DNA of 64,000 bases from Bacteroidetes bacterium HGW-Bacteroidetes-5 (GTDB lineage Bacteria; Bacteroidota; Bacteroidia; Bacteroidales; UBA932): the NCBI GenBank assembly GCA_002842515.1, contig PHDC01000001.1, positions 1,364,001 to 1,428,000 on the forward strand, read 5' to 3'. Shown one piece after another: positions 11,776 through 45,746 of this stretch; within the stretch, counting starts at the first letter, position 1; each line of letters opens with the position of its first letter. The translations under genes were made by a program, and so were the position numbers. The notes under the pieces were generated by a model. It was not told where the DNA came from. It made no database searches and saw only the letters and a list, made by a program, of their open reading frames with translations.

Positions 11776-11802
11776 CAAAGACCCACGATGCTTGGCAAGG
11801 TT
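11776..11802. repeat. 27-bp dispersed direct repeat, copy 1 (at rpsC stop codon)
   Basis: This segment matches 30596-30622 at 25 of 27 positions (core CCCACGAT, one variable base, then CTTGGCAAGGTT), same orientation. Its right end runs into the rpsC stop codon. The final 12 bp are also found in the tRNA-Gly anticodon arm (17771-17782). Confidence 0.7.
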
Positions 11803-12628
11803 ATTCCTCCCTGCGTGGTCCTCTGTCGCGTCCTCCGGCATTACCTCCGGCGTTGCCGCCTCTTCCGCCTCTGGATGGTCCGCCGCCGCCTCTACGATCG
11901 TTGTTACGGTCGTTGTTTCTGCGAGGACGATCGTTGTTACGTCCGGATTGTGGGGCAGATGATGGTCCTGCAGTTACTCCCATATTTGGAGAGAGGTCTC
12001 TCTTTCCGAATATTTCGCCATTGCAGATCCATACTTTAACACCGATTACACCTACTTTGGTATGAGCCTCAGCGTGTGCGTAGTCGATATCTGCACGGAA
12101 TGTGTGAAGTGGTGTACGTCCCTCTTTGTAAAGCTCTCTTCTTGCCATCTCGGCTCCACCCAAACGACCGCTCACAAGAACCTTGATTCCCTCTGCGCCC
12201 ATTCTCATTGTAGATGCCATTGCCATTTTAATGGCGCGACGATAAGATACACGACCTTCTACCTGACGAGCAATATTGTTGGCTACAATATTTGCGTCAA
12301 TCTCCGGTCTCTTTACTTCAAAGATATTTATCTGAACCTCTTTGTTAGAGATTTTTTTCAACTCCTCTTTCAGTTTGTCTACCTCCTGACCACCTTTTCC
12401 GATAATGATACCGGGACGGGCTGTGTGGATAGTTACTGTGATAAGTTTAAGAGTTCTCTCTATCACGATTTTAGAAAGGCTTGCCTTTGCAAGACGAGCA
12501 TTAAGATATTCGCGAATCTTTGAATCTTCCAATAGTTTCGCAGCATAGTCTTTTCCACCGTACCAGTTAGAGTCCCAGCCACGGATAATACCAAGTCGGT
12601 TTGATATAGGATTTGTCTTTTGTCCCAT
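11801..12628 (-). CDS. rpsC: 30S ribosomal protein S3
   Basis: A 275-residue S3. The KH type 2 RNA-binding region ([16 protein letters not shown] at about residues 66-82) and the C-terminal S3 domain ([13 protein letters not shown], then RADIDYA) are intact. S3 forms part of the mRNA entry tunnel and unwinding site of the 30S subunit. After about residue 227 it carries a low-complexity tail of Asn, Asp, Arg and Gly (RNNDR repeats, GGNAGG), longer than the usual 210-240-residue forms. It is the last gene of the operon here: 1 bp separates it from rplV upstream, and a strong terminator follows instead of rplP. Its stop codon lies inside a short dispersed repeat. Confidence 0.97.
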
Positions 12629-12629
12629 T

Positions 12630-13052
12630 TTATTGCTCCTCTTTTTCGGTTTTTACTTTCTTACCCAACACTATAGTTACGTGGTTAGAACGCTTACGAA
12701 TTCTAGCTGCGCGACCTTGTGGTGCTGTTCTGATACGCTTTAGAGAACGACCTTGTCCAACCATAATAGTTTGAACACATACATTGCCGTTTTCCAACTC
12801 TTTACGATCTGATTCGTTTTTGGCTTCCCAGTTGGCTATTGCCGAACGGAGCAGTTTTTCCAAACGAATAGATGCCTCCTTTTTGGTATACTTAAGTATA
12901 TCCAAAGCGCGGTTTACCTCAACTCCTCTGATGATATCTACAACGAGTCTCATCTTTCTAGGAGAGGTAGGAAGATCATTCAGCGATGCAATTGCTGTCT
13001 GCTTCTTTATTTCTTTACGCCTTTCGGCTGATTCTCTTTTTCGAGCTCCCAT
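12630..13052 (-). CDS. rplV: 50S ribosomal protein L22
   Basis: A 140-residue L22, which lines the peptide exit tunnel. Recognised from [15 protein letters not shown] (about residues 29-43) and the C-terminal loop region ending in [14 protein letters not shown]. An N-terminal lysine-rich extension of about 20 residues precedes the core, as is common in Bacteroidota. It lies in the usual order between rpsS and rpsC, 1 bp from rpsC and 32 bp from rpsS. Confidence 0.97.
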
Positions 13053-13084
13053 TATTGTGAATTTCTTTTACTCATTAACATAAA

Positions 13085-13348
13085 TTAACGATTACCCGAG
13101 TGACCTTTAAAGGTGCGGGTAGGTGCAAACTCTCCAAGTTTGTGTCCTACCATATTCTCGGTTACATACACCGGAATAAACTTGTTGCCATTGTGAACAG
13201 CAATAGTGTGGCCTACAAAGTCCGGCGATATCATACTGGCTCTTGACCAGGTCTTGATGACCTCCTTTTTACCAGCCTCATTCATAGCAAGTACTCTATT
13301 CTCGAGACTTGCCTGTATGTATGGTCCTTTTTTCAGTGAACGACTCAT
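13085..13348 (-). CDS. rpsS: 30S ribosomal protein S19
   Basis: An 87-residue S19, full length for the family. It begins [11 protein letters not shown] and ends with the [14 protein letters not shown] motif; the basic C-terminal part binds 16S rRNA in the head of the 30S subunit beside S13. Twenty-three bp after rplB and 32 bp before rplV in the operon. Confidence 0.97.
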
Positions 13349-13371
13349 AATTCTCTTTTCAGTTTAATCCG

Positions 13372-14196
13372 TTATTTTTTCCTTCTTTCAATTATGAACT
13401 TCTTGGTTGTCTTTTTAGGATTACGTGTTTTGTAACCTTTAGCAAGCAAGCCTTTTCTAGAACGAGGGTGACCTCCGGAAGCACGTCCTTCTCCACCACC
13501 CATCGGGTGATCTACAGGGTTCATCGCTACACCGCGAACACGAGGCCTGCGGCCAAACCAGCGATTTCTTCCTGCTTTTCCGAACGATTCAAGATTGTGA
13601 TCTGAATTGGATACAGTTCCAACAGTTGCACGGCAGGTAACAAGTACCATCCTAATCTCACTTGAAGGGAGTTTAAGAATAGCGTGTTTTCCTTCTCTTG
13701 CAGTTAATTGAGCATAAGTTCCGGCACTGCGGGCCATTGCGGCTCCCTGTCCCGGGCGTAACTCAATGTTGTGAACTAATGTACCCAACGGGATCTCTGA
13801 AAGAGGTAGAGTGTTCCCAATTTCTGGGGCTACTCCGGGTCCGGATGCTATTACCTGACCCACTTTAATTCCGTTAGGAGCTATTATATAGCGTTTCTCT
13901 CCATCTGCATATAAAACCAGGGCAATTCGTGCACTCCTGTTAGGGTCGTACTCGATGGTCTTTACTGTAGCTGTATAATTGTCCTTATCTCTAAGGAAGT
14001 CAATCATACGGTACATTCTTTTGTGACCGCCTCCGATATAACGCATTGTCATCTTTCCCCTGTCATTTCTACCACCGGATTTGCTGATAGGCGCCAATAG
14101 CGACTTCTCCGGTTTATCACAGGTAATTTCAGTAAATGCGCTTATTGCTTTATGTCTTGTACCGGGTGTTACCGGCTTGAATTTACGTATTGCCAT
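13372..14196 (-). CDS. rplB: 50S ribosomal protein L2
   Basis: A 274-residue L2 beginning [16 protein letters not shown]. The start at 14196 is chosen because the longer in-frame start at 14235 would lie inside rplW and adds residues foreign to L2. The conserved GRNNRGKMT-type block ([19 protein letters not shown]) and the C-terminal [13 protein letters not shown] loop near the peptidyl-transferase centre are intact. L2 supports subunit association and the catalytic centre. Four bp separate it from rplW. Confidence 0.97.
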
Positions 14197-14200
14197 GGAC

Positions 14201-14491
14201 TTAAATATTACTGTAGAAATCAATCTTATCTTCACTGGCCAATGTTACAATCGCTTTCTTGAAGTGATTGGTACGACCTGACAATAATCCCGCTTTAGTG
14301 AAGCGGCTTTTACGTTTTCCGTGGTAGTTAATTGTATTTACATCCAACACTTTAACTCCGTAAATCTCCTCAACCGCAGCCTTGATCTCAATCTTATTGG
14401 CATTGCGGTCAACTACAAAACCGTAACGATTCAACTTCTCGCCCTGAATCGTCATCTTTTCTGTTACTATAGGCTTAATTAAAATTTCCAT
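14201..14491 (-). CDS. rplW: 50S ribosomal protein L23
   Basis: A 96-residue L23, located at the tunnel exit where trigger factor and SRP dock. It begins with the typical [10 protein letters not shown] and contains [19 protein letters not shown] and a short basic loop GKRKSR. Standard position between rplD (11 bp) and rplB (4 bp). Confidence 0.96.
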
Positions 14492-14502
14492 TGTTCCACG
14501 GT

Positions 14503-15135
14503 TTAATTATTTCCATACTGCCCCTGCAGGATATCCTGAACACCATCCATAAAGATAAGTGAGGTAGCGTTAACCACATCATAGGTGTTAAGTTCGTTAA
14601 CGTTAATTACCTTAACGTTTTGCAGGTTACGTGAAGAGACATAAATATTACTTATATTCTCCGGAAGCACGAATAGAACTCTTCTATCGTTAATCTTAAG
14701 ACCTTTAAGAATCTTCATAAAGTCCTTAGTTCTTGGAGCCTCCATTGAGAAGTTTTCAATAATTGTCAACGACTCCTCTTTCACCTTATAAGAGAGTGCA
14801 GAGAAACGTGCCAGTTGTTTTAACTTCTTGTTAAGCTTAAATCTATAATCTCTTGGTCTCGGTCCGAAAACGCGTCCACCACCTACATAGATGTTTGCTT
14901 TAATACTACCGTGACGAGCACCGCCTGAGCCTTTCTGACGAACGACCTTTTTAGTACTGTATGCCACTTCCCACTTCTCCTTTGTCTTGTGAGTTCCCTG
15001 ACGCTGGTTGGCCAGATACTGCTTCACATCAAGGTAAATAGCGTGATCGTTTGGCTCTATACCAAAGATACCGGGATCCAAAGTCACCAATTTTCCTGAC
15101 TCTGTTCCATCAATTTTGTAAACTGATAATTCCAT
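14503..15135 (-). CDS. rplD: 50S ribosomal protein L4
   Basis: A 210-residue L4. The tunnel loop is recognisable from RQKGSGGARHGSIKANIYVGGG (given here in part) at about residues 68-88, and PRDYRFKLNKK follows. L4 binds 23S rRNA early in assembly and, in some bacteria, represses its own operon; nothing here proves such control. It follows rplC by 6 bp. Confidence 0.96.
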   Translation of the reverse strand: MELSVYKIDGTESGKLVTLDPGIFGIEPNDHAIYLDVKQYLANQRQGTHKTKEKWEVAYSTKKVVRQKGSGGARHGSIKANIYVGGGRVFGPRPRDYRFKLNKKLKQLARFSALSYKVKEESLTIIENFSMEAPRTKDFMKILKGLKINDRRVLFVLPENISNIYVSSRNLQNVKVINVNELNTYDVVNATSLIFMDGVQDILQGQYGNN

Positions 15136-15141
15136 ATACGC

Positions 15142-15771
15142 TTATTCCTCCACGATTACATATGAACCCTTAGCACCGGGAACAGATCCCTTAACTATCA
15201 GAAGATTATTCTCTGGAATAATCTTTAGAACTCTTAGGTTCTGTATTTTCACCTGATCGCCACCCATACGGCCGGCCAATCTTTTTCCTTTAAATACTCT
15301 TGAAGGCCAAGATGATGCGCCCATTGAACCGGGAGCACGAAGTCTGTTGTGCTGACCGTGGGTCTGACCGCCAACTCCGCTGAATCCGTGGCGTTTCACA
15401 ACCCCCTGGAATCCTTTTCCTTTAGATATTCCTACAACATCTACCCATTCCAATGTATCGTGTCCGAATACATCTGCAACGGTAACAGTGTCACCTAGCT
15501 GAAACTCCTTTAAAAAGTCGTTCTTAAACTCAACGACTTTGCGCTTAGGTGTGGTGTTTGCCTTTTTAAAGTGACCCGACAGGCCACCGCTGGTGTGTTT
15601 TTCCTTTTTTTCGTCATAGGCAAGCTGTACAGCGGCATAACCATCTTTCTCTTCTGTACGTACTTGCGTAACAACACACGGACCAGCCTCAATAACGGTG
15701 CATGGAATATTTTTTCCATCGGCACCAAAAACAGAAGTCATTCCGACTTTCTTTCCAATTAATCCAGGCAT
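15142..15771 (-). CDS. rplC: 50S ribosomal protein L3
   Basis: A 209-residue L3, first gene of this operon; it begins [15 protein letters not shown] and carries the [15 protein letters not shown] and [13 protein letters not shown] motifs around the central loop that reaches the A-site entry. In most Bacteroidota rpsJ lies immediately upstream; here rpsJ is 30 kb away on the other strand and rplC has its own promoter with a 5' hairpin leader. Confidence 0.97.
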
Positions 15772-15810
15772 TGGTTTTTAATTTGGTGTTTTTTAAATAA
15801 TTAATACTAA

Positions 15811-15828
15811 CCGCACAAAAAATGCGGG
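15811..15828 (-). promoter_or_regulatory. 5' leader hairpin of the rplC operon
   Basis: On the minus strand the first nucleotides of the predicted transcript form CCGCA-loop-TGCGG with a T-rich seven-base loop. It sits directly at the expected transcript 5' end, about 40 nt before the rplC start. It may stabilise the mRNA or take part in ribosomal-protein feedback; this is inference. Confidence 0.4.
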
Positions 15829-15831
15829 CTG

Positions 15832-15862
15832 CAAAGATACAATAAAAAGTTATAATTGCAAT
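15832..15862 (-). promoter_or_regulatory. Promoter of the rplC operon
   Basis: On the minus strand ATTG at 15859-15862, a 19-bp spacer and TATCTTTG at 15832-15839 fit TTTG-N19-TAnnTTTG with one mismatch in the -33 element. This explains how the rplC-rpsC block is transcribed away from rpsJ. Confidence 0.7.
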
Positions 15863-15943
15863 AGCCCAGGCGAATATATTAACAAGATATGAACACTCTT
15901 CCCGGATTTTTTTGTGAGCTATGTGTCTAAGTGAGCCGGGATT

Positions 15944-16516
15944 TTAGGTGAGCAGTGAATTCAGGTTGGAGGTGATAAGCTTAACGGCTATTGCGAGCAG
16001 AATAATTCCAAAGAATTTTCTCAATACGTAAATACCCCCCTTCCCAATCTTTCTCGAAATATAATCTATATTGTTCAAAACAAAGAAGACAACCACAATA
16101 TTTAAAAAGAGAGCAGAAATAATATTGATGAGCTCATACTCTGCCCTTAACGAAAGCAGCGTAGTAAACGATGCGGCACCGGCAATCAGCGGAAACACAA
16201 TAGGAACAATGGTTGCAGATTCTGTTGGGCCATCGTCTTTAAATATCTGAATTCCAAATATCATCTCAATGGCCAGCACCAGCAGCACCAAAGCACCCGC
16301 AACGGCAAAAGATGAGATATCCACTCCAAATAGCCCAAGCATCGCCTGCCCCACAAAAAGGAACGCCAGCAATATTCCAAACGATATAAGTGATGCATTT
16401 ACAGCGCTATAGCTCTTTTTCTTCTCCTTTAGCCCTATAATAATAGGCACCGAACCCAGTATGTCAATTACTGCGAACATAACAATAAAGGCGCTGAAGA
16501 TCTCTTTTAGGGACAT
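15944..16516 (-). CDS. MarC family integral membrane protein
   Basis: A 190-residue protein with about six hydrophobic helices and no signal peptide. The sequence FAVIDILGSVPIIIGL at the first helix and the later VPIVFPLIAGAASFTT segment match the MarC/UPF0056 family, whose two halves are related repeats. Despite the name, MarC proteins are not proven antibiotic-resistance factors and the transported substrate is unknown. It lies alone on the minus strand, next to the divergent RAYT gene. Confidence 0.8.
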   Translation of the reverse strand: MSLKEIFSAFIVMFAVIDILGSVPIIIGLKEKKKSYSAVNASLISFGILLAFLFVGQAMLGLFGVDISSFAVAGALVLLVLAIEMIFGIQIFKDDGPTESATIVPIVFPLIAGAASFTTLLSLRAEYELINIISALFLNIVVVFFVLNNIDYISRKIGKGGIYVLRKFFGIILLAIAVKLITSNLNSLLT

Positions 16517-16524
16517 AACTCTGG

Positions 16525-16636
16525 CAGTGTTTGATGCAACAATTTGATATTCTTTGTTTTACAAAACCCAGTTTTCCAAGTTTGGAAAACTGCCCTTTCT
16601 AATCCACTGTTATTCAGCAATATTCATCAAACACTG
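16525..16636. repeat. Nested inverted repeats upstream of the RAYT gene
   Basis: Outer arms CAGTGTTTGATG (16525-16536) and its exact complement (16625-16636) flank an inner perfect 11-bp inverted repeat, CAGTTTTCCAA/TTGGAAAACTG with a 2-bp centre (16569-16592). The block lies between marC and the RAYT start codon. REP-like recognition structure, transposon-end remnant or operator are all possible. Confidence 0.6.
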
Positions 16637-16700
16637 GCAAAGGTTGTTTGCAAAGTTAACTCTTTTGGTTAAATTCGTAAAACTTTTTAATTTGAGAGAG

Positions 16701-17513
16701 ATGGAAGGGAAGATCAATAATGGGAGTAATTCTCAGTTAATCAAGCGTATCCAGACGGGCAACAATCACGTCTATTTAAGGGGAAATGGAAAGAATACAG
16801 TATTTTATAAGGATTCTGAAAGAATTGAATTCTTAAAAAGGTGTAACTCTGCCGCTAAGAGGCATAATTGCAAAATTCTTGCATTTGTACTAATGGATAA
16901 TCACCTTCATCTGCAGGTGGAATCTAAGAAGCTGGTATCTTTTGTTAAATCAATTTTGATAGGATACGTTCAGTGGTACAACAAACAAAACGGACTTTCA
17001 GATAAACTTTTCAAAACACCCTTTAGCAGTGCCTGCAAATATACAGATGAAAGTGTCGTTGAAAGCATTATGTATATTTTATGCAATCCCGTCAAAGCTG
17101 GTATATGCTCACATCCGGGCGAATACTTATGGAGTTCATACGATGCGTACTTTAATAGTAGAAGCCCCATTTTAAAGTACATTGATATTGACACCGAGTT
17201 AATCAGAACCATATTTAAAACTAAGAAGGAGTTTGAAAGCGCTGTTCTCAATTACTCTTCGGACATAGATAGGATAAGAAAAAGGGGTAAGGGATATTGG
17301 CCAAGAGAGTTACACAACGACATTATTAACCATCTGTCAAAAATTTTAAAAGGCAGGAATATTTTTCAACTCAATAGAGATGAGATCTCAAATCTAATTC
17401 TTCGACTTCGGAAAGAGACTGGTGCATCGTTCAGACAAATAGCATCAATTACACACGAGAGCTACGAAGAGGTTCGCAGAATAATTGTCGGCAAAAAAGG
17501 AGTTGGGATTTAA
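16701..17513 (+). CDS. REP-associated tyrosine transposase (RAYT, Y1/HUH family)
   Basis: A 270-residue protein if started at the ATG at 16701; a longer in-frame start at 16554 would cross the inverted repeats and adds 49 residues unlike the family. The HUH motif is HLH at residues 67-69 (in DNHLHLQVE), followed by the helix with the candidate nucleophile Tyr88 or Tyr92 (GYVQWYNKQNG) and NPVKAGI about 50 residues later, the usual RAYT order. A C-terminal helix-turn-helix-like stretch (FRQIASITHESYEEVRRII) would bind DNA. RAYTs are domesticated IS200/IS605-like single-strand nucleases that act on REP hairpins. The gene is single and intact, flanked by inverted repeats upstream and a terminator-like hairpin downstream, with no second transposon gene. 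Confidence 0.85.
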   Translation: MEGKINNGSNSQLIKRIQTGNNHVYLRGNGKNTVFYKDSERIEFLKRCNSAAKRHNCKILAFVLMDNHLHLQVESKKLVSFVKSILIGYVQWYNKQNGLSDKLFKTPFSSACKYTDESVVESIMYILCNPVKAGICSHPGEYLWSSYDAYFNSRSPILKYIDIDTELIRTIFKTKKEFESAVLNYSSDIDRIRKRGKGYWPRELHNDIINHLSKILKGRNIFQLNRDEISNLILRLRKETGASFRQIASITHESYEEVRRIIVGKKGVGI

Positions 17514-17521
17514 TAGATGGT

Positions 17522-17550
17522 GTCCCTGCCAGCAGGGACTGTTTTTATTT
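17522..17550 (+). terminator. Terminator after the RAYT gene
   Basis: GTCCCTG and CAGGGAC form a perfect 7-bp stem around CCAG, followed by TGTTTTTATTT. It begins 8 bp beyond the stop codon. The same hairpin could also serve as a REP-like target. Confidence 0.75.
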
Positions 17551-17594
17551 AGTTGATATCCCCCCGTTTCACAAAAGACTGGCAGTTGAAAAAG

Positions 17595-17680
17595 TACTCG
17601 GGACGGGAATCGAACCCGTACGGGCATTTCTGCCCACAGGATTTTAAGTCCTGCGTGTCTACCTATTCCACCACCCGAGC
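17595..17680 (-). tRNA. tRNA-Leu (anticodon TAA)
   Basis: On the minus strand an 86-nt cloverleaf begins GCTCGGG. The anticodon arm presents TAA in the loop CTTAAAA, there is a long class II variable arm (GGGCAGAAATGCCC), and a T-arm with GGGTTCGATTCCC. CCA is not encoded. The first acceptor pair is G-U. It lies downstream of tRNA-Gly on the same strand, separated by a hairpin. Confidence 0.95.
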
Positions 17681-17703
17681 ATTTCAATCAACTTAATTCA
17701 AAA

Positions 17704-17733
17704 AAACCTCTCCATTACGCGGAGAGGTATTTT
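17704..17733. terminator. Hairpin between tRNA-Gly and tRNA-Leu
   Basis: ACCTCTCC and GGAGAGGT form an 8-bp stem with a 7-nt loop, with T-tracts outward on both strands. On the minus strand it would end or attenuate the tRNA-Gly transcript before tRNA-Leu; no clear separate promoter for tRNA-Leu is visible. Confidence 0.7.
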
Positions 17734-17736
17734 TAG

Positions 17737-17809
17737 AGCGGAAAACGAGACTCGAACTCGCGACCCTAACCTTGGCAAGGTTATGCTCTACCAACTGAGC
17801 TATTTCCGC
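17737..17809 (-). tRNA. tRNA-Gly (anticodon GCC)
   Basis: A 73-nt cloverleaf starting GCGGAAA on the minus strand. The anticodon stem TAACC/GGTTA encloses TTGCCAA, giving GCC. The T-arm is GAGTTCGAGTCTC and the discriminator is T, as expected for glycine. CCA is not encoded. A consensus promoter lies directly upstream. Confidence 0.96.
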
Positions 17810-17820
17810 ATTTGGGACTG

Positions 17821-17851
17821 CAAAAGTAATAAAAATTTTACAAGCTCCAAA
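17821..17851 (-). promoter_or_regulatory. Promoter of tRNA-Gly
   Basis: On the minus strand TTTG (17848-17851), a 19-bp spacer and TACTTTTG (17821-17828) match the Bacteroidota consensus exactly, with a start near 17817, 8 nt before the mature tRNA. Confidence 0.75.
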
Positions 17852-17964
17852 ATTTACATCAAAAACGTTTTAAAAATATAATCCCAAAACTGTACTGCCT
17901 ATCTCTTAAATTAAAGCGTGTTGAGATTATAGACTAAATTGCAAGCTAAATTTGCTGCTCCTTC

Positions 17965-18990
17965 CTAGATAACTGTTTCAAACTCTTTGAGGAAACGGAT
18001 ATCGTTTTCGAAGTAGTGGCGAAGGTCTTTCACCTGCCACTTTAGCATTGCGATGCGCTCTATGCCCATTCCGAAAGCGAAGCCGGTATAAACTTTACTG
18101 TCGATGCCGTTTGCTTCCAGCACATTGGGGTCAACCATTCCGCAGCCCATAATCTCGAGCCAACCGGTTCCTTTGCAGATATTGCACCCTTTACCTTTGC
18201 AGATGTTACAACTTACATCCACCTCGGCGCTTGGCTCTGTGAAAGGGAAGTAGGATGGGCGAAGGCGAATCTGGGCATCTTCGCCAAACATTTCGCGAAC
18301 GAAAAGCAGGACAGCCTGTTTAAGATCTGCAAATGAGACCTTTGTATCTATATAGAGACCCTCCACCTGGTGGAAGATGCAGTGGGCGCGTGCAGATATC
18401 GCTTCGTTGCGGAAAACCCTTCCGGGGCAAACGATTCGGATAGGCAGCTTCATATTCTCCATTGCTCTCACCTGCACAGAGCTGGTGTGAGTGCGCAAAA
18501 GAACAGGATTTTCTCCGGCGGAGATAAAGAATGTATCCTGCATATCTCTGGCAGGGTGTTCGGGCGGGAAGTTAAGTGCCCCAAATACGTGCCAGTCATC
18601 TTCAATCTCCGGCCCCTCTGCAAGAACATAGCCGAACTTATTGAAAATTGAAAGAATCTCGTCTCTGGTAATAGATATAGGGTGTCTGCCGCCAAGCTCA
18701 ACAAGGTCGCCCGGCTTTGTGAGGTCATATTTTGACTCTACCGGCTGCTGGTTCTCCTCCAAAAAAGATTTTAGCTCTTCAATCTTTTGGTTTGCAGCAA
18801 CTTTGAGCTTGTTCAAGACCTGCCCCAATTCACGTTTCTGCTCAGGAAGAACATCCCGAAACTCATCAAAAAGCTGAGTTACAGAGCCCTTTTTGCCCAG
18901 CAATTTTACTCTGATCTCCTCAATTTCCTGCTCTTTTTGAGCCTTTAGCTCCTCAATTTCGGCAAGCAGCCTCTCTATTTTCTCTTTCAT
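17965..18990 (-). CDS. pheS: Phenylalanyl-tRNA synthetase alpha subunit
   Basis: A 341-residue class II synthetase alpha chain, which joins with PheT to charge tRNA-Phe. The N-terminal 90 residues are a long charged coiled coil that binds the tRNA. Motif 2 (RTHTSSVQVRAME, then PGRVFRNEAISARAH) and motif 3 (GFAFGMGIERIAML near residue 310) are intact, with a Cys-rich insertion (CNICKGKGCNICKG) that suggests a bound metal. pheT is not adjacent in this window. A TACCTTTG box at 19044-19051 lies about 50 bp upstream, with a TTTG at a short 15-bp spacing. Confidence 0.96.
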   Translation of the reverse strand: MKEKIERLLAEIEELKAQKEQEIEEIRVKLLGKKGSVTQLFDEFRDVLPEQKRELGQVLNKLKVAANQKIEELKSFLEENQQPVESKYDLTKPGDLVELGGRHPISITRDEILSIFNKFGYVLAEGPEIEDDWHVFGALNFPPEHPARDMQDTFFISAGENPVLLRTHTSSVQVRAMENMKLPIRIVCPGRVFRNEAISARAHCIFHQVEGLYIDTKVSFADLKQAVLLFVREMFGEDAQIRLRPSYFPFTEPSAEVDVSCNICKGKGCNICKGTGWLEIMGCGMVDPNVLEANGIDSKVYTGFAFGMGIERIAMLKWQVKDLRHYFENDIRFLKEFETVI

Positions 18991-19122
18991 CTCTTATTAT
19001 TTACTATATGGGCAGATCTTAATTCCCGGTAACTCCCAGCCCGCAAAGGTAATAATTTCTGTTAAACAAAGCCCGCTAACAACGATGCAGGTGGCAGTCT
19101 CTTTATGAAACTACTTATGCAA

Positions 19123-22200: not shown

Positions 22201-22234
22201 ATAATTTTTATTGGAGATTTGTCAACTTATTGGT

Positions 22235-22271
22235 TATCTGGAAACTGATAGGGTATCTGGAAACTGATAGG
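22235..22271. repeat. Two tandem 18-bp copies upstream of the tricorn-like gene
   Basis: TATCTGGAAACTGATAGG occurs at 22235-22252 and again identically at 22254-22271, one base apart. The pair lies in the 100 bp between the arcA stop codon and the tricorn-like gene start on the same strand, a suitable place for a paired operator or simply a recent slippage product. Confidence 0.7.
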
Positions 22272-22301
22272 CAATTGTTAAGCCCGATAATAGCGGGAAA
22301 T

Positions 22302-29132: not shown

Positions 29133-29142
29133 CGCCCAAATT

Positions 29143-29198
29143 ATGTGGAGAGATTTGACTGCTTGCAACCACTTTAAAAAAATGCTAAAACGTTCCAT
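29143..29198 (+). promoter_or_regulatory. SAM-II riboswitch controlling metK
   Basis: The leader carries the SAM-II (metA/SAM_alpha) aptamer pattern: a P1 arm GTGG (29145), the loop segment AGATTTG, the invariant GCTTGCAACCAC which closes P1, an A-rich spacer and the 3' pseudoknot strand GCTAAAACG (29184-29192). Binding of S-adenosylmethionine would stabilise the H-type pseudoknot and reduce expression of SAM synthetase, closing a feedback loop. The aptamer ends about 120 nt before the start codon, an unusually long distance for a class that commonly hides the ribosome-binding region, so the expression platform is unclear. Confidence 0.85.
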
Positions 29199-29316: not shown

Positions 29317-30594
29317 ATGTCTTATCTATTTACTTCGGAATCTGTTTCAGAGGGGCATCCCGACAAAGTTGCCGATCAGATTTCGGACGCTGTTCTTGAC
29401 CAGTTTCTTTGTCAGGACTCAGAATCTAAAGTGGCGTGTGAAACATTTGTCAGTACAGGGCTGGTAGTTATCGGCGGGGAGGTTAAATCTGACGCCTATG
29501 TAGATATCCAGCAGGTGGCACGCAGAGTAATAAACCGCATAGGGTATACAAAAGCCGAATATATGTTTGACGGAAACTCGTGCGGAATCCTATCTGCAAT
29601 ACACGAACAATCTGCAGATATCAACCGCGGAGTAGAGGTTGCAGATCCTCAGGAGCAGGGGGCGGGAGACCAGGGGATGATGTTTGGTTATGCCTGCCGC
29701 GATACTCAGGAGTATATGCCTCTTCCGCTCACACTCTCTCATATTGCCCTTTTAGAACTTGCAAAAATCCGCAGAGAGGGCACTCTTATGCCATACCTTC
29801 GTCCCGATGCAAAGTCACAATTTACCATCGAATATAACGACGACAACACCCCAAGCAGAGTACACACCATTGTTATATCTACCCAGCACGATGATTTTGA
29901 TACCGACGACTCGATGCAGGTGAGAATAAAGAGTGATGTTAAGAACATACTCATACCAAAAATTTTGGAGAGGCTTCCCCAAGAGACAAAAGCGCTGTTT
30001 AAGGATGACTATATCCTGCACGTTAACCCAACCGGGAAATTTGTGATTGGAGGTCCGCACGGAGATACCGGCCTAACGGGAAGAAAGATTATCGTAGATA
30101 CATACGGCGGGAAAGGGGCTCACGGCGGAGGAGCATTCTCCGGCAAAGATCCTAGTAAAGTTGACCGGTCTGCCGCCTACGCTGCAAGATATATTGCCAA
30201 GAACCTGGTAGCTGCAGGAGTAGCAGATGAGGTTCTGGTTCAGCTGGCCTATGCAATTGGGGTAGCACGCCCGGTGAGCATCTTTGTAAACACATACGGA
30301 ACAGCTTTTAGAGACAACAAAAAGCAGTTTGTAAACGACAGCGTAATTGCAGATCGGGTTCAAAAGCTGTTTGACCTTCGTCCTGCAAGCATTATCAAAC
30401 GATTTTCGCTCAAGAAACCTATCTATGAGGTGACTGCCGCCTATGGCCATATGGGAAGAGACCCCTTTAAAAGAGAGGTTGAACTATGTGTTAACGGTGA
30501 GTTGGTAAAGGAGGAGATTCAGTTTTTCGGTTGGGAGCTTTTAGACTCAGTAGATCTTATAAAAAAGGAATTTGGCCTAAATAGCTCATTTTAA
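29317..30594 (+). CDS. metK: S-adenosylmethionine synthetase
   Basis: Makes S-adenosylmethionine from methionine and ATP in the cytoplasm. The 425-residue sequence has the N-terminal [17 protein letters not shown] motif (substrate and metal binding), [12 protein letters not shown] (about residues 115-126), and [18 protein letters not shown] near residue 270. It is longer than the usual 380-400 residues, owing to small insertions typical of Bacteroidota. It is preceded by a SAM-II riboswitch and a consensus promoter and is transcribed alone; its stop codon overlaps that of the convergent YhbP-like gene. Confidence 0.97.
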
Positions 30595-35114: not shown

Positions 35115-35134
35115 ATAAAAAGAATTATTTTTGG

Positions 35135-37415: not shown

Positions 37416-37429
37416 AGCAGATCAACCCG

Positions 37430-38008: not shown

Positions 38009-38025
38009 AATATTTATTATCTTTG
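37997..38025 (+). promoter_or_regulatory. fbp promoter
   Basis: TTG at 37997-37999, an 18-bp spacer and TATCTTTG at 38018-38025 fit the Bacteroidota consensus. The -33 part lies within the sodB start region. Confidence 0.6.
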
Positions 38026-38058
38026 GTTACTGCTAATATATGCAAAAAAATCTGAAAA

Positions 38059-40020
38059 ATGAAAGATCTCAAATACCTGAAGCTCCTCTCCAGAAGCTTT
38101 CCAACAATTTCTGATGCTACGACAGAGATAATAAACCTCGAAGCAATACTGAACCTGCCTAAAGGGACAGAGCATTTTCTCACCGATATACACGGAGAGC
38201 ACGAAGCTTTCCGCCACGTTCTCAAGAATGCATCCGGGGTAATCCGCAAAAAGGTTGAGATGATTTTCGGCCACAGGTTGCGGGAACAGGAGAAGAAGGA
38301 GATCTGCTCTCTTATCTACTATCCGCAGGAGAAGCTTGATGTTATTAAGCAGAGGGAGGGCAAAGAGATTGACGATTGGTACAAGGTAATACTTGTGCAG
38401 CTGATAAGCGTATGCAGTAATGTCTCTTCCAAGTACACACGCTCAAAGGTGAGAAAGGCTCTCCCAAAAGAGTACTCATACATTATTCAGGAGCTGCTCC
38501 ACGAATCATTTGCAGAGCCCAACAAACAGGAGTATATATCCTCAATTATATCGACAATCGTTTCTACCGGTCGTGCAGAGCACTTTATTACAGCCATCTG
38601 CAACCTTATCCAGAGGCTTACTATAGACTCACTCCACGTTATAGGGGATGTTTATGACAGAGGACCGGGGGCTCATATAATAATGGATCTGCTTTGCAAC
38701 TATCACAATTTTGACATTCAGTGGGGGAATCACGACATTGTCTGGATGGGTGCTGCCTCGGGAAGTGAAGCGTGTATGGCAAATGTGGTGAGGATGTCGC
38801 TTCGCTATGCAAACCTGAAGACACTGGAGGAGGGTTACGGAATAAATCTTATGCCTCTGGCCTCATTTGCAATGGAGTGCTACAGTGATGACCCTTGTTC
38901 GCTCTTCAAACCAAAATTAAATGAAGACGAACCGGTAAAGAACAAAGATATCAAGATTATATCCCAGATGCATAAGGCCATAACCGTTATTCAGTTTAAA
39001 CTGGAGGGGGCTGTTATAGATCGCAACAAAGAGTTTGGAATGGAAGATCGCAGGCAGCTGCATTTGATAAACTACGAAAAGGGAACAGTAATGATCAATG
39101 GGGTGGAATACCCGCTAAAGGATACCAACTTTCCTACCATAGATCCGGCTAATCCTTATAAACTCACAGAGGAGGAGCAGGATGTTGTGGATAAACTGAT
39201 GCACTATTTCCTATCCAGCGGTAAGCTCAAAAAACATATGAGGTGTATGTACAATAACGGCTCTCTCTATCTGGTAAGAAACGCCAATCTGCTATATCAC
39301 GGTTCAGTTCCGCTTAATGAAGATGGCTCCCTCAAAAAGGTTCGGATAGGCAATGAAGAGCTTAGCGGCAAGGCTCTTTTCGATAAAATAGACAAACTGG
39401 TAAGACAGGCATTCTTTGAGGAGAGGGGTAAGCCGGGGAAAACAACCGGGAGAGATCTTATCTGGTATCTATGGTGCGGCCCCTACTCACCACCATTTGA
39501 CAAGGAGAAGATGGCCACCTTCGAGAGGTATTTTATTGCAGATAAAGAGACCCATAAAGAGAAGAAGGGTCACTACTATTATCTTAAAGACAATAAAGAG
39601 ATCTGCGAAATGATTCTAAAGGAGTTTGGAATTGAAGAGGCGCAATCTCACATAATTAACGGCCACATCCCGGTAAAAACCGGCAAGGGGGAGTCTCCGA
39701 TAAAGGCCGGCGGGAAACTTCTGGTCATAGACGGAGGGTACTCAAAAGCCTACCAATCTGAGACCGGAATTGCCGGATACACATTAATCTACAACTCACA
39801 CGGGCTGCAACTGGCGCAACACCAACCTTTTGTAACAACAGCCAAGGCAATAAGGGATGGAGATGATATAATCTCGGAGACAACCGTAGTTGAGTTCAGC
39901 AACAAACGTATGCTGGTAAGGGATACCGACATTGGTGCCGAGCTTCAGAAACAGATTGACGATCTTCTACACCTTGTGAGTGCATACAGAAACGGTCTTA
40001 TTAAAGAGGCGCTCTTGTAG
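38059..40020 (+). CDS. fbp: Fructose-1,6-bisphosphatase class III
   Basis: Dephosphorylates fructose 1,6-bisphosphate in gluconeogenesis. At 653 residues it is the large class III form of Firmicutes and Bacteroidota, a metallophosphatase unrelated to E. coli Fbp. The metal-site motifs are TDIHGEHEAF (about 42-51), IGDVYDRGPGAH (about 194-205) and WGNHDIVWMG (about 223-232), with a C-terminal NGHIPVK and DGGYSKAY. It is encoded alone, with its own promoter. Confidence 0.93.
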   Translation: MKDLKYLKLLSRSFPTISDATTEIINLEAILNLPKGTEHFLTDIHGEHEAFRHVLKNASGVIRKKVEMIFGHRLREQEKKEICSLIYYPQEKLDVIKQREGKEIDDWYKVILVQLISVCSNVSSKYTRSKVRKALPKEYSYIIQELLHESFAEPNKQEYISSIISTIVSTGRAEHFITAICNLIQRLTIDSLHVIGDVYDRGPGAHIIMDLLCNYHNFDIQWGNHDIVWMGAASGSEACMANVVRMSLRYANLKTLEEGYGINLMPLASFAMECYSDDPCSLFKPKLNEDEPVKNKDIKIISQMHKAITVIQFKLEGAVIDRNKEFGMEDRRQLHLINYEKGTVMINGVEYPLKDTNFPTIDPANPYKLTEEEQDVVDKLMHYFLSSGKLKKHMRCMYNNGSLYLVRNANLLYHGSVPLNEDGSLKKVRIGNEELSGKALFDKIDKLVRQAFFEERGKPGKTTGRDLIWYLWCGPYSPPFDKEKMATFERYFIADKETHKEKKGHYYYLKDNKEICEMILKEFGIEEAQSHIINGHIPVKTGKGESPIKAGGKLLVIDGGYSKAYQSETGIAGYTLIYNSHGLQLAQHQPFVTTAKAIRDGDDIISETTVVEFSNKRMLVRDTDIGAELQKQIDDLLHLVSAYRNGLIKEALL

Positions 40021-40024
40021 ACCT

Positions 40025-40939
40025 CTATTTTACAGGAGTTAGAAAGAGCTCGGCCATCATACATCTGGCAGATCCACCTCCGTTGTTCTCTATGGTTGTA
40101 AGGTTTGGTGCAACAATTTTGCAGTGCTGCCCAATTTTATCTACCTGATCCTGAGTTAAAGAGTTGTAGGCTGTTTTTGACATTACTAAAATAGACTCGG
40201 CCGTTTTACTCTCTACCTCCAGCATATTCCCAGCAAATTTCTCCATCTGCTCCAGAGATATCTCAATAATCTCTTTGTCGCTCTCCTCAATAAGGGCGAT
40301 AAGGTTCTGCCTCTCATCTATATCTTTAACGGCATCCAGACAAACAACGGCAAAGCTTCCCGCGATACACATCATAACATTTGTGTGGTAAATTGGGTTC
40401 CCGGCAGAGTCGGAGGCATTGAACAGAAAGTAGTCGTAGTCCAGTTCGTCGCAGAATGCCTCAAGAACTGTCTCATCTGTTCTTACAGAGCGGCAGGCAA
40501 ATACCAGGTTATGGTCTCTGTCAAATATCATACTGCCTGTACCCTCCAGAAAAAGAGATTTTTCTTCAAATTTTGTAAGGTCTACTACTCTCTTGACCCG
40601 GAAGTTTTTCCTGATAAAATCCAGCACGGCGGGTTTTCTCTCAAGGCGCCTGTTTGGGGCAAACATCGGGTATAGCACCAGCGTACCCCCCTCGTGAGCC
40701 GAGAACCAGTTGTTCGGAAATATTGAGTCCGGGGTGTGTGGTTCGGGTGTATCTTCAATAACGAAAACCTCAACTCCTGCCGAACGGAGAAGTTGCACAA
40801 ACTCGTCAAACTCTTTAATTGCTCCTTCGCGAGCATTACTCTCGTGCCCTCTTTGCTGGAAAGCGTTATTTGCAGATGTCTGTTCATTGAACCCGAAATT
40901 CACGGGTCTCACCATTAAAATTCTGGATGTAGATTGCAT
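40025..40939 (-). CDS. ctlX: Citrulline-utilisation hydrolase CtlX-type
   Basis: A 304-residue guanidino/ureido hydrolase of the amidinotransferase fold. Conserved elements are DSIFPNNWFS, LEGTGSMIFDR, YHTNVMM with the catalytic His, and the C-terminal GGGSARCMMAELF with nucleophile Cys293. The CtlX group hydrolyses citrulline to ornithine, releasing ammonia and carbon dioxide. The gene directly follows rocD by 35 bp, whose enzyme consumes ornithine, which supports this assignment; together with ArcA a route from arginine to glutamate semialdehyde is complete. Confidence 0.88.
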   Translation of the reverse strand: MQSTSRILMVRPVNFGFNEQTSANNAFQQRGHESNAREGAIKEFDEFVQLLRSAGVEVFVIEDTPEPHTPDSIFPNNWFSAHEGGTLVLYPMFAPNRRLERKPAVLDFIRKNFRVKRVVDLTKFEEKSLFLEGTGSMIFDRDHNLVFACRSVRTDETVLEAFCDELDYDYFLFNASDSAGNPIYHTNVMMCIAGSFAVVCLDAVKDIDERQNLIALIEESDKEIIEISLEQMEKFAGNMLEVESKTAESILVMSKTAYNSLTQDQVDKIGQHCKIVAPNLTTIENNGGGSARCMMAELFLTPVK

Positions 40940-40974
40940 TATCTCTTTTCTGATTAATTTGCTTTGATTTTAAC

Positions 40975-42204
40975 TTACTCCAATGCTCTGAAAGACTTTT
41001 TAATAATCTCTATAGCCTCCATAAGCTCAGTTTCGGTTATCACCAAAGGAGGTGCAAATCTTATAATGTGTTTATGGGTTGGTTTTGCAATGAGTCCGTT
41101 CTGGGCCATTTCAACACATACATCCCACGCCTCTTTGCCATTGTATGGTTTCACAACAATAGCGTTGAGCAGCCCCTTTCCTCTTACCAACTCTATGAAT
41201 GGTGAGTCAAAATTTCTCATCTCCCGGCGGAAGATCTCACCCAGTGTAGCTGCCCTCTCTGTGAGTCTCTCCTCTTTAACAACCTCAAGTGCTGCCATAG
41301 CCACACGGTTTGCGAGCGGAAATCCACCGAATGTAGAGCCGTGCTCTCCCGGTTTTATGGTAAGCATAATCTCATCATCTGCAAGTACGGCAGATATCGG
41401 AAGTACCCCTCCGGAGATGGCTTTACCCAGAATAACTATATCCGGCCGTATCTCTTCGTGGTCACAGCATAACATCTTACCGGTACGGGCAATTCCTGTC
41501 TGAACCTCATCTGCAACAAATAGAACATTGTGCTTCTTGCACAGGTCGTAACATTTTTTTAGATAGCCGTCATCCGGAACAAAGACACCGGCTTCGCCCT
41601 GAATTGGCTCTACCAGAAATGCGGCAATGTTTTTCCCATAATCTGTAAGCACCTTTTCCAGTGCAGATACATCGTTATAGGGTATCTTAATGAGGCCCGG
41701 AGTAAATGGGCCGTAACCTGCGTATGAATCCGGGTCTGTGGAGAGTGAGACAATTGATATTGTACGGCCGTGAAAATTGCCTTCACACCCTACTATCATC
41801 GCCATATTCTCGTGAATTCCCTTTTTTGAATATCCCCACCTTCTGGAGAGCTTAAGTGCAGTCTCAACCGCCTCTGCACCTGAGTTCATCGGAAGGATCT
41901 TGTCGTATCCGAAATAGTTGTGCATAAACTCCTCATAAGGGCCTAATGTGTCGTTGTAAAAGGCTCTTGATGTGAGACATAGCTTCTGCGCCTGCTCGGT
42001 GAGTGCCTTTACAATCTTTGGGTGACAGTGACCCTGGTTAACTGCAGAGTAGGCAGAGAGAAAATCGAAATATCTCTTACCGTCTACATCCCATACATAC
42101 GCCCCCTCTCCTCTTGATAAAACAACCTCTAAAGGGTGGTAGTTGTGAGCTCCGAAATGCTCTTCCTGTGTAATAAAAGCCTGAGATTTTGGTGAAATTT
42201 TCAT
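40975..42204 (-). CDS. rocD: Ornithine aminotransferase
   Basis: A 409-residue PLP enzyme of class III aminotransferases that transfers the delta-amino group of ornithine to 2-oxoglutarate, giving glutamate 5-semialdehyde. Recognised from [45 protein letters not shown] and the PLP lysine in ILGKAISGG. High similarity to ornithine aminotransferases over N-acetylornithine types is inferred from the N-terminal [10 protein letters not shown]-like region ([19 protein letters not shown]). It is the first gene of the rocD-ctlX pair; a TAAATTTG box lies at 42244-42251. Confidence 0.92.
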
Positions 42205-42243
42205 TACTTTGTTTTATGAAATGAGTAAACTTGTCTTCTACCG

Positions 42244-42251
42244 CAAATTTA
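42244..42251 (-). promoter_or_regulatory. -7 box of rocD-ctlX
   Basis: TAAATTTG on the minus strand, 40 bp before the rocD start. No clear -33 TTTG is seen. It lies back to back with the rpsL promoter. Confidence 0.45.
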
Positions 42252-42285
42252 GCTCATATTTTGGTCGTAAAATGTTAATAAGTTG

Positions 42286-42316
42286 TTTGTAATTACGGAA
42301 AATAGTCTTACCTTTG
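42286..42316 (+). promoter_or_regulatory. Promoter of the rpsL (str) operon
   Basis: TTTG at 42286-42289, a 19-bp spacer and TACCTTTG at 42309-42316: an exact match to TTTG-N19-TAnnTTTG. The leader is about 48 nt. Confidence 0.8.
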
Positions 42317-42367
42317 CAACCCGTTTTGTATAACGAAAATAGTTAAAGCTAAGAATAACAAGTAATT

Positions 42368-42772
42368 ATGCCAACAATTCAACAGTTAGTTCGCAAGGGA
42401 CGTGAGGTTATCGTAGAGAAAAGTAAATCTCGCGCACTTGACTCTTGTCCTCAGAGACGCGGAGTATGTGTACGTGTTTACACAACAACTCCTAAAAAAC
42501 CAAACTCAGCTATGCGTAAAGTAGCTCGTGTACGCCTTACAAATCAGAAAGAGGTGAACGCATATATCCCGGGTGAAGGTCACAACCTTCAGGAGCACTC
42601 AATTGTGCTTGTACGCGGTGGTCGTGTGAAAGATCTTCCTGGTGTTCGTTATCACATCCTTCGCGGTGCTCTTGATACTGCAGGTGTAGACGGACGTAAG
42701 CAAAGCCGCTCACTTTACGGTACGAAGAGGCCTAAGAAAGGCGCAGTTAAAGCTGCGGTAAAGAAAAAGTAA
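42368..42772 (+). CDS. rpsL: 30S ribosomal protein S12
   Basis: A 134-residue S12, located at the decoding centre. The invariant [18 protein letters not shown] and the later [23 protein letters not shown] are intact. It opens the str operon, 22 bp before rpsG. C-terminal lysine-rich tail as usual in the phylum. Confidence 0.98.
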
Positions 42773-42794
42773 TAACAAAATCAAATTTAAGTAA

Positions 42795-43271
42795 ATGAGA
42801 AAAACGAAGCCTAAAAAGAGGATTCTGCTTCCCGACCCAAAATTTCACGACTCTTATGTAACAAGATTTGTGAATAACCTTATGATTCAGGGAAAGAAGA
42901 GTATCGCCTATCGCATCTTCTACGATGCGCTTGACATCATCGGCGAAAAGATGAAAGATTCTGACAAGGCTCCTTTAGAGATCTGGAAAAAAGCATTAGA
43001 GAATGTAACACCACAAGTTGAGGTTAAAAGCCGCAGGGTTGGTGGAGCAAACTTCCAGGTTCCTACAGAGGTGCGTCCCGAAAGGAAAATTTCAATCTCG
43101 ATGAAAAACCTTATTATGTACGCACGCAAACGTTCCGGTCACACTATGGCCGACAAACTTGCCGCAGAGATTATGGCAGCCTATAACAACGAGGGTGCTT
43201 CTTACAAGAGAAAAGAGGATATGCACAAAATGGCAGAGGCTAATAAGGCGTTTGCACATTTCCGTTTTTAA
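42795..43271 (+). CDS. rpsG: 30S ribosomal protein S7
   Basis: A 158-residue S7, which nucleates assembly of the 30S head and contacts the E site. Recognised from the start MRKTKPKKR, the YDSxxVxxFVNxLM-like segment ([18 protein letters not shown]), [16 protein letters not shown] and the C-terminal [19 protein letters not shown]. Second gene of the str operon. Confidence 0.98.
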
Positions 43272-43299
43272 GCACCAAATAGCACCACTATCCAAATAA

Positions 43300-45420
43300 A
43301 TGGCAAGAGATTTAAAATATACAAGAAATATCGGCATAATGGCCCACATTGATGCCGGTAAAACTACTACATCCGAACGAATTCTTTTTTACACAGGTAA
43401 AACTCACAAGATCGGCGAAGTACACGACGGAGCCGCAACAATGGACTGGATGGTTCAGGAGCAGGAGAGGGGAATAACAATCACATCTGCAGCGACTACA
43501 GCCTTCTGGGACTACAATGGAGACCTGTATCAGATTAACCTTATAGACACTCCGGGACACGTAGATTTTACAGTAGAGGTCGAGAGATCTCTTCGTGTAC
43601 TTGATGGTACTGTTGCCACATTCTGCGCCGTTGGCCGCGTTCAGCCTCAATCTGAGACTGTTTGGCGCCAGGCAGATAAGTATCACGTTCCCAAAATGGC
43701 TTATGTAAACAAAATGGACCGTACCGGCGCCGATTTCTATGCTGTTGTCGAAGAGATAAACAGCAAGTTGGGTGCCAATGCAGTTCCGATTGCTCTGCCT
43801 ATCGGGGCTGAAGATAAATTCGAAGGAATAATTGACCTTATAGCAAATAAAGCATACTATTACGACCAGGATAATAAAGAGCTTATAAACTACGTCGTAA
43901 AAGAGGTGCCTGCAAATATGGTTGCAGAGGCAGCTGAGTGGAGAGGAAAACTAGTTGAGTCAATTGCAGAGTATAACGATGCAATTCTTGAGAAGTTCTT
44001 CGACGATCCTGACTCTATATCCGATACCGAAATTATAGATGCACTTCGCAAAGCTACCATTGATATGGCGGTTGTACCTGTGACGTGCGGCTCATCATTC
44101 AAAAACAAAGGCGTTCAATATCTGCTGGATTCTGTGATGCGCTACCTGCCATCACCCCTTGACATCGGTGACATTAAGGGTATCAACCCGGACACCGAGA
44201 AAGAGGAGATTCGTAAAACAGATATCAAAGAGCCTTTCTGCGGTCTTGTTTTCAAGATTGCAACCGACCCTTATGTGGGACGTCTGGCATACATCAGAGC
44301 TTACTCCGGCAAACTGGATTCGGGATCTTATGTCCTGAATACACGCTCCGGCAAGAAAGAGAGAGTTGCCCGTCTCTACCAGATGCACTCAAACAAACAG
44401 AACCCAATTGAATTTGTAGAGGCTGGCGATATTTGCGCTGCAGTGGGCTTCAAGGAGCTTCGCACCGGAGATACAGTGTGTCTTGAGAGCAAACCAATCG
44501 TTCTGGAATCTATGTCTTTCCCGGATCCCGTTATCGGTCTTGCAGTTGAGCCAAAAACTCAAAAAGATCTTGACAAACTGGGAATGGCCCTCTCTAAACT
44601 ATCGGAAGAGGATCCTACATTTACAGTTCGTACAGACCACGAGACAGGGCAGACAGTAATCAGCGGAATGGGTGAACTCCACCTGGAGATTATTGTAGAC
44701 CGTCTTAAGAGGGAGTTTGGAGTGGAGATTAACCAGGGTGCTCCTCAGGTTAACTACAAAGAGGCTATCCGTTCAACTGTCCAGCATCGCGAGGTGTTCA
44801 AGAAGCAGACCGGTGGTAGAGGTAAATTTGCAGATATCATTTTTGAGATAGGACCTGCAGATGAAGGTATCTCCGGACTTCAATTCATAGATGAGGTAAA
44901 AGGCGGTAATATCCCAAGAGAGTATGTACCATCTGTTGAGAAGGGCTTCAAAGCTGCTCTCTCAAATGGTGTTCTTGCAGGATATGAGGTAACATCCCTT
45001 AAGGTTGTTCTTAAGGATGGTTCATTCCACGCAGTTGACTCAGATGCCCTTTCGTTTGAAATTTGTGCAAGACAGGCATTCCGTAAGGCTTGCCCTAAAG
45101 CGCACCCTTATATTCAGGAGCCTATTATGTCTCTTGAAGTTGTTACACCGGAAGATTATCTTGGAGATGTAATTGGTGACCTTAACAAACGCAGGGGCCA
45201 GATAAACAATATGGACTCGAAAGGTAATGCAAGGATTGTAAAGGCTAAAGTGCCCCTCTCGGAGCAGTTTGGCTATGTAACTATACTTCGTACTCTATCA
45301 TCCGGACGCGCTACCAGCACAATGGAGTTCTCTCACTATACCGAACTTCCTGCTAATCTTGCAAAAGAGGTTATTGAGAAGGCCGGCGGAAAGAAATTTG
45401 ATAACGACTTAGACGAATAA
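43300..45420 (+). CDS. fusA: Elongation factor G
   Basis: A 706-residue translocation GTPase. G1 is AHIDAGKT at residues 15-22, switch I includes the [11 protein letters not shown] segment, G3 DTPGHVDF and G4 NKMDRTGAD are intact, and domains II-V follow with the [18 protein letters not shown] stretch of domain III. It lies in the str operon 28 bp after rpsG and 20 bp before rpsJ, in the canonical order. Confidence 0.98.
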
Positions 45421-45440
45421 AAAGAGAAAAAAATAAAGAT

Positions 45441-45746
45441 ATGAGCCAAAAAATAAGAATTAAGCTAAAATCTTACGATCATATGCTCGTTGATAAATCG
45501 GCAGATAAGATCGTTAAAACAGTAAAAGCTACCGGTGCTGTTGTAAGTGGCCCTATTCCACTCCCTACAGACAAGAAGATTTTCACCGTAAACCGCTCTA
45601 CCTTCGTTAACAAGAAGGCTCGCGAGCAGTTCGAACTGAACTCTTTCCGCCGTCTGCTGGACATCTACAGCTCAACTCCTAAAACAGTTGATGCATTGAT
45701 GAAACTTGAACTTCCCAGCGGAGTTGAAGTAGAAATCAAAGTCTGA
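45441..45746 (+). CDS. rpsJ: 30S ribosomal protein S10
   Basis: A 101-residue S10 beginning [14 protein letters not shown] and containing [17 protein letters not shown]. In most bacteria of this phylum it is followed by rplC; here it is the last gene of the operon and a tRNA gene follows after 83 bp. No terminator lies between them, so the tRNA may be partly transcribed from the str promoter. Confidence 0.98.

Follow-up and report, generated by a model that had tools for sequence, protein, structure and literature searches.

The window analysed here is a 64,000-nucleotide stretch of Bacteroidetes bacterium HGW-Bacteroidetes-5, C1:1364001-1428000 of a 2.82-Mb, five-contig draft genome that is 92.85% complete. 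It carries two separated pieces of the str-S10-spc-alpha ribosomal supercluster. The block rplC-rplD-rplW-rplB-rpsS-rplV-rpsC occupies window positions 11801-15771 on the minus strand, and the block rpsL-rpsG-fusA-rpsJ occupies 42368-45746 on the plus strand. The seven minus-strand and four plus-strand genes were identified with NCBIfam equivalog models, as follows.

11801-12628, minus: rpsC (S3), 275 amino acids, last gene of the isolated block (TIGR01009, 287.8 bits)
12630-13052, minus: rplV (L22) (TIGR01044)
13085-13348, minus: rpsS (S19) (TIGR01050)
13372-14235, minus: rplB (L2) (TIGR01171)
14201-14491, minus: rplW (L23) (NF004363)
14503-15135, minus: rplD (L4) (TIGR03953)
15142-15771, minus: rplC (L3), first gene of the isolated block (TIGR03625)
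42368-42772, plus: rpsL (S12) (TIGR00981)
42795-43271, plus: rpsG (S7) (TIGR01029)
43300-45420, plus: fusA (EF-G) (TIGR00484, 1021.6 bits)
45441-45746, plus: rpsJ (S10), with no rplC after it (NF001861)

The model match of rplB begins at residue 16, and its true start therefore probably lies downstream of the listed GTG.

The gap between the two blocks (15771-42368) measures 26.6 kb and their orientations are opposite, as a first-pass annotation of the window had claimed. In a continuous supercluster, rpsJ is followed by rplC and rpsC by rplP; neither succession is found in this genome. The absence of rplP behind rpsC, also claimed, was confirmed by locating the rplP region, a check that the same annotation had proposed. 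The single rplP match in the genome lies at C1:1143960-1144346, minus strand, about 231 kb from rpsC and on the same 2,179,573-bp contig. It is the first gene of a spc-alpha-like block: rpsQ, rplN and rplE behind it were confirmed by tblastn, and the rest of spc-alpha after rplE fits by order and size of the open reading frames (ORFs) only. The proposed split at two points is borne out in that both junctions are broken, with the amendment that there are three pieces in total, two of them inside the window and the rplP block outside. Within each piece the gene order is that of relatives (beyond rplE by ORF order and size).

Distribution and origin of the split

The genes rpsC, rplP, rpsJ and rplC were searched in this genome and in 98 relatives (99 in total), the DNA around each was compared, and a break was scored with at least 2 kb of flank at the junction. 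Genera without an intact cluster were represented by 52 genomes, of which 51 were analysed (G020 was left out). Both breaks were found in 44 of these 51, belonging to 18 genera. The remaining seven are limited by short contigs, with one break visible in G005, G006, G008, G012 and G048 and less than 2 kb at every junction in G009 and G049. No intact rpsJ-rplC or rpsC-rplP junction was found in any of the 51 genomes. Three of the assemblies that show the split consist of a single contig (G010, G011 and G027). Comparison of gene order in relatives, another of the checks proposed, thus showed the double split to recur in 44 of 51 clade genomes, three of them single-contig assemblies, and the assembly error named as a refutation is therefore untenable. 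The split is neither an assembly artefact nor peculiar to this genome; it is clade-wide.

Seven genomes of the same family are intact (one each in genera g7, g8, g19, g20 and g24 and two in g9). The search also covered 40 genomes of other families. By coordinates, both junctions are continuous in 35 of them; G068 has none of the four genes, and in G066, G069 and G070 contig ends interrupt, or probably interrupt, the cluster. The last of the 40, G059 (family f2; L165, L166, L167), shows no rplC in 8 kb after rpsJ and no rplV in 6 kb after rpsS; its rplC and rplV pieces begin at contig ends, and it may have its own, different breaks. In an intact g9 genome (G051; L157 3232-5099 and 8372-9858), extra genes lie inside the supercluster. 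Between fusA and rpsJ stand a gene for a protein that by eye resembles orotate phosphoribosyltransferase and genes for small, secreted-looking proteins; relatives of the latter are also encoded between rpsS and rplV.

Named records, most of them metagenome-assembled genomes (MAGs), were also considered, with 80 loci kept out of at least 573 confirmed. In 66 of the 80, rplP directly follows rpsC; the other 14 (L005-L011, L019, L027, L028, L029, L034, L036 and L046) show no intact cluster. A search for rplP in the genomes behind nine of these 14 loci found it in six, and in all six TAnnTTTG precedes rplP while rpsC is absent upstream; it was not found in the genomes behind L029, L034 and L046. 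In both intact named genomes searched, rpsC lies upstream of rplP.

A FastTree phylogeny of 15 proteins with 82 tips was calculated. The 57 tips from non-intact genera and named split loci (49 genomes labelled split by genus and eight named loci) form exactly one clade, with a support of 0.99. At least one tip is counted twice, L005 and G003 being evidently one genome (zero distance). The clade holds no intact tip and is nested inside the family. The rplC-rpsC genes alone return the same clade (54 split tips, support 0.995), as do the remaining eight genes on their own (41 split tips, support 0.939). This large branch of uncultured gut bacteria comprises 19 of the 25 genera sampled in the family, the other six being intact; in one of the 19, g25 (G048), only the rpsJ side of the split is visible. 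We take the family to be GTDB UBA932 (Bacteroidales), a name inferred because L008 is Candidatus Coprenecus merdigallinarum and Ca. Coprenecus is assigned to UBA932 (PMC8035907); in the NCBI taxonomy it belongs to Rikenellaceae. Most genera of this one family have the split in common, and it is old.

New neighbours recur at the broken ends. A PBP4B/beta-lactamase-like family stands after rpsC in eight genera, with chorismate-pathway genes further on, and the families DUF4294 (12 genera), metallophosphatase (11) and uppP (9) stand before rplP.

The first-pass annotation had also called the split unusual for the phylum and the separation of rpsC from rplP particularly rare. Both statements are supported by a phylum sample of 128 genomes with a completeness of 90% or more, this one and 127 others, in which positions were compared by eye. 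In all 122 other genomes that have both genes, rplP lies closely behind rpsC on the same strand; five genomes have neither gene. The rpsJ-rplC junction, by comparison, is broken in seven of the 122 (G100, G110, G147, G178, G193, G197 and G220, of families f42, f44 and f49; L337-L347). In these, rpsJ lies 2 Mb away (G100), on another contig (G147), or 8.6-23 kb from rpsC instead of the usual ~4 kb (G110, G193, G178, G197 and G220). Their DNA places the break at rpsJ-rplC, and rplC-rpsC-rplP is continuous in each. Apparent separations in G113, G137 and G192 proved to be contig ends. The rpsC-rplP break is thus the rarer one and rpsJ the looser joint. Within the phylum sample no other lineage was found to have the rpsC-rplP break; L046, which lies outside that sample, is the only candidate for sharing it.

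Promoters, leaders and terminator of the pieces

The regulatory features predicted in the window are listed below.

15826-15839, minus: putative promoter of the rplC block, TATCTTTGCAGCCC, a TAnnTTTG -7 element with a CAnnCC extension (motif match)
15772-15831, minus: rplC transcript leader (start inferred), with the 5'-proximal hairpin CCGCATTTTTTGTGCGG at 15827-15811
11716-11755, minus: intrinsic terminator-like repeat after rpsC, AAGATAACCAAC/GTTGGTTATCTT plus a T-run, bidirectional in form
42309-42322, plus: putative promoter of the str block, TACCTTTGCAACCC (motif match)
15826-15839, 17815-17828, 42309-42322 and 45811-45824: sites of the TAnnTTTGCAnnCC form

A promoter for each of the two pieces in the window, as asserted in the first-pass annotation, can be proposed, and another for the rplP block. 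The putative elements read TATCTTTG at 15839 (minus) before rplC, TACCTTTG at 42309 (plus) before rpsL and TATATTTG 130 nt before rplP. TAnnTTTG is the -7 consensus of sigma-ABfr, the Bacteroides housekeeping sigma factor (PMC7366714), and by this element the predicted promoters before rplC, rplP and rpsL are of the sigma-ABfr type. They share the -7 element with the Bacteroides promoters but differ in the CAnnCC extension and the link to translation genes, neither of which belongs to the sigma-ABfr promoters described in the part of PMC7366714 drawn on here. A scan for sigma-70-type promoters was uninformative (9 sites vs 8.2 expected).

TAnnTTTG was sought in the 150 nt upstream of rplC and rpsL and in the 250 nt upstream of rplP, with expected counts taken from shuffles that keep base composition only. 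Among split-clade genomes with enough sequence, 43 of 44 have it before rplC (4.4 expected), as against 0/7 intact family genomes and 0/2 others; its distance from the ATG is 59-73 nt in 42 of these 43. Before rplP the corresponding figures are 40/40 (6.2 expected), 2/7 and 0/3. The str block has the element before rpsL in split and intact genomes alike (38/38 split, 4/4 intact family, 1/2 others). The promoter distance is nearly fixed at rplC and rpsL.

All three pieces in this genome are predicted to start from the TAnnTTTGCAnnCC form. In the window, TANNTTTGCANNCC occurs five times vs 0.23 expected: before rplC, before rpsL, before each of two tRNA genes, and at one site within a gene. Genome-wide, TAnnTTTGCAnnCC has 46 sites, the rplC, rplP and rpsL starts included, vs one for the reversed pattern. 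Among the 30 sites examined, 12 stand directly before tRNA genes and six before ribosomal-protein genes, namely rplC, rplP, rpsL and, by eye, L34-, L19- and L31-like genes. Of the 18 translation sites, 10 have a stem that opens within the first 6 nt, vs 3 among the remaining 12; the hairpin may thus be tied more closely to the promoter class than to ribosomal proteins.

The rplC leader begins with a hairpin of the CCCGC..GCGGG type, with z below -1 in 38 of 39 distinct leaders (mean -2.55); an alignment of 30 of the 39 by MAFFT did not line up the 3' arm. For rpsL leaders, z is below -1 in 20 of 31. The promoter site used is probably not the main one in G006, G010 and G023 (rplP) and in G041 (rpsL). 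A hairpin common to all three pieces is not supported for rplP. The rplC hairpin may be part of a specific ribosomal-protein leader, but similar hairpins precede some tRNA genes. Candidate leaders in Bacteroidia are listed for L13 and S4, and none for L3 or S12, in the part of PMC7247131 drawn on here. Rfam models matched only tRNA and SAM-II in the window, and no ribosomal-protein leader. The SAM-II riboswitch is located at 29139-29198, upstream of an ORF at 29317.

The perfect terminator reported after rpsC holds up in form, with a 12-bp stem without mismatch, a 4-nt loop and a T-run. A mechanical terminator scan (6 found vs 3.6 expected) does not list it, perhaps since the A and T runs lengthen the stem into the tail. 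The same scan does list the rplC leader hairpin, and for this reason an attenuator role of that hairpin, which it may have, is kept in view. Among 46 split loci, 34 have a terminator-like repeat in the 200 nt behind rpsC, vs 0 of 10 loci where rplP follows, a contrast tempered by a criterion that we defined ourselves, without shuffle control, and by the same stretch being coding in the ten intact loci.

Explanations and comparison with known systems

Gene order, neighbours and tree establish an ancestral double cut whose products were inherited as separate units. In the explanation preferred here, the supercluster was cut at rpsJ-rplC and rpsC-rplP in the ancestor of most UBA932 genera, and its three pieces would have been passed on since as separate transcription units. 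The rplC-rpsC block would have a housekeeping-type promoter to itself, then a short leader bearing a 5' hairpin, and in most genomes a terminator-like repeat, and the rplP block a promoter of its own, as predicted from their sequences. In place of co-transcription, the pieces would share a promoter class that acts in trans, is recognised by the housekeeping polymerase and probably responds to growth. Since all pieces in this genome have the TAnnTTTGCAnnCC form, which among the sites examined stands largely before tRNA and ribosomal-protein genes, this shared class probably keeps synthesis balanced and growth-linked; we infer this last step. For the explanation as a whole, from one ancestral double cut to a shared promoter class in place of physical linkage, we estimate a probability of about 0.8.

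Several observations weigh against it. Only 30 of the 46 motif sites were looked at, and 12 of these 30 have no evident translation gene after them. The promoter distance at rplP varies from 34 to 173 nt, and the rplP leaders, with z below -1 in 19 of 40, have no common hairpin form. Two rplC leaders in g4 deviate, the promoter lying 108 nt out in G027 and, in G050, none within 150 nt and one at 171 nt. The new neighbours were not seen in g2, g6, g13 and g23, among others, and the sister group of the split clade differs between the two gene sets.

Other explanations were weighed against the same evidence. That unrelated contigs were wrongly joined at the junctions, in assembly or in binning, would suit a five-contig, incomplete draft, and ribosomal regions can assemble badly; yet all pieces lie on one 2.18-Mb contig, and the double split recurs through the clade, single-contig assemblies included, together with its neighbours, promoters and terminators. 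For the clade this error is refuted, and we give it practically no weight. It is also very improbable that the rplC-rpsC block came from another lineage and displaced the native genes, the native cluster losing its middle. The block is a separable unit and its sister group is unlike that of the other genes, but in the trees of both gene sets the split clade falls within the same family and contains no outside tips, and none of the family genomes searched has more than one match for rpsC or for rplC. The separate gene-set trees thus do not support a foreign origin.

A neutral split under relaxed selection, with generic Bacteroidota promoters that have no coordinating role, is possible but the less probable view. 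It would agree with the recurrence of rpsJ-rplC breaks in the phylum (7/122), with the recurrent relaxed selection on gene order inferred by Brandis 2021 (PMC8046335) and with TAnnTTTG being the general sigma-ABfr consensus (PMC7366714). The near-fixed promoter spacing and the hairpin at rplC throughout the clade argue otherwise, as do the scarcity of the extended TAnnTTTGCAnnCC (46 genome sites) and its richness in translation genes among those examined. A large tandem duplication followed by loss of alternate copies in one episode (SNAP-type; PMC7055797) would explain why every informative clade member has both breaks and none is known to keep one junction, and also why rpsJ and rplP, at a distance of 39-58 kb, have retained a common orientation in G027, G028, G033 and G052. 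Synteny was compared between intact G047, G030 and G031 and split G000, G011, G027, G028 and G033. The gene aroC lies ~32 kb upstream of rpsL in intact G047, within ~15 kb of rplC-rpsC in G000, G010, G011, G021, G027 and G028, and on other contigs in G025, G033 and G038; these positions are explained equally by transposition or inversion, and we regard the one-episode duplication as rather doubtful. As to the path, both duplication with loss and a stepwise course of insertion and then disconnection (Brandis, PMC8046335) fit.

An IS200-like (Y1_Tnp) gene is present at window 16554-17513, 0.8 kb upstream of rplC, between a MarC-like gene and two tRNA genes. It is unlikely to be the cause of the break, its family having been found in only six places, in g1 and g4.

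Compared with known systems, the split is a known type of event in a new form: the break falls inside S10 (rpsC-rplP) and is old and clade-wide. In Aquifex aeolicus, str, S10, spc and alpha are dispersed although relatives keep them together (PMC3879981). This resembles the present case in that ribosomal operons are separated, unlike in relatives; the dispersal there, in another phylum, is mostly by E. coli-type operon, as far as the part of that source drawn on here goes, whereas in the UBA932 clade S10 itself is cut at rpsC-rplP and its first gene stays with str. The insertion-then-disconnection model of Brandis 2021, a catalogue of alterations in operon clusters, may apply; the part of that study used here covers Proteobacteria, Acidobacteria, Firmicutes and Tenericutes, and 75 of its 115 rearrangements leave operons intact (PMC8046335). 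The seven other Bacteroidota with a displaced rpsJ share the first breakpoint of the split clade and, unlike it, keep rplC-rpsC-rplP continuous. In cyanobacteria and plastids the str operon ends at rpsJ and S10 starts at rplC, the same boundary, but there rpsC and rplP are joined, unlike in the split clade. No title or abstract on this split was noticed among the publications listed in literature searches, which were covered mostly by titles and abstracts; Coenye and Vandamme 2005, reportedly the standard survey, lay outside that scope.

A second origin is possibly represented by L046 (isolate Gx481_bin90), a Bacteroidales MAG that groups with L052 outside the family (support 0.984). Its rplC-rpsC block apparently stands alone (6000-11558), with no rpsJ in the 6.8 kb before rplC and a TACCTTTG site ~195 nt before rplC. 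Behind rpsC follow an inverted repeat and tandem-repeat-like noncoding DNA, with no rplP in the 703 bases to the contig end. Because rplP was not found in the L046 genome, this case is only a lead. A more tentative proposal, on which we would not wager, is that rplC-rpsC is a natural module that becomes an autonomous operon once given a translation-class promoter and a 5' hairpin. This would have happened once at the root of most UBA932 and possibly again in L046, at the same two boundaries, and the growth control that makes linkage dispensable would reside in TAnnTTTGCAnnCC with its hairpin, a combination that tRNA genes share.

The str-S10-spc-alpha order is among the most conserved bacterial gene orders, and the reason is still debated. 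The 19 sampled genera with the cluster cut inside S10, beside intact sister genera, are a natural experiment on this conservation, and the common promoter type of the pieces suggests one concrete way to manage without linkage.

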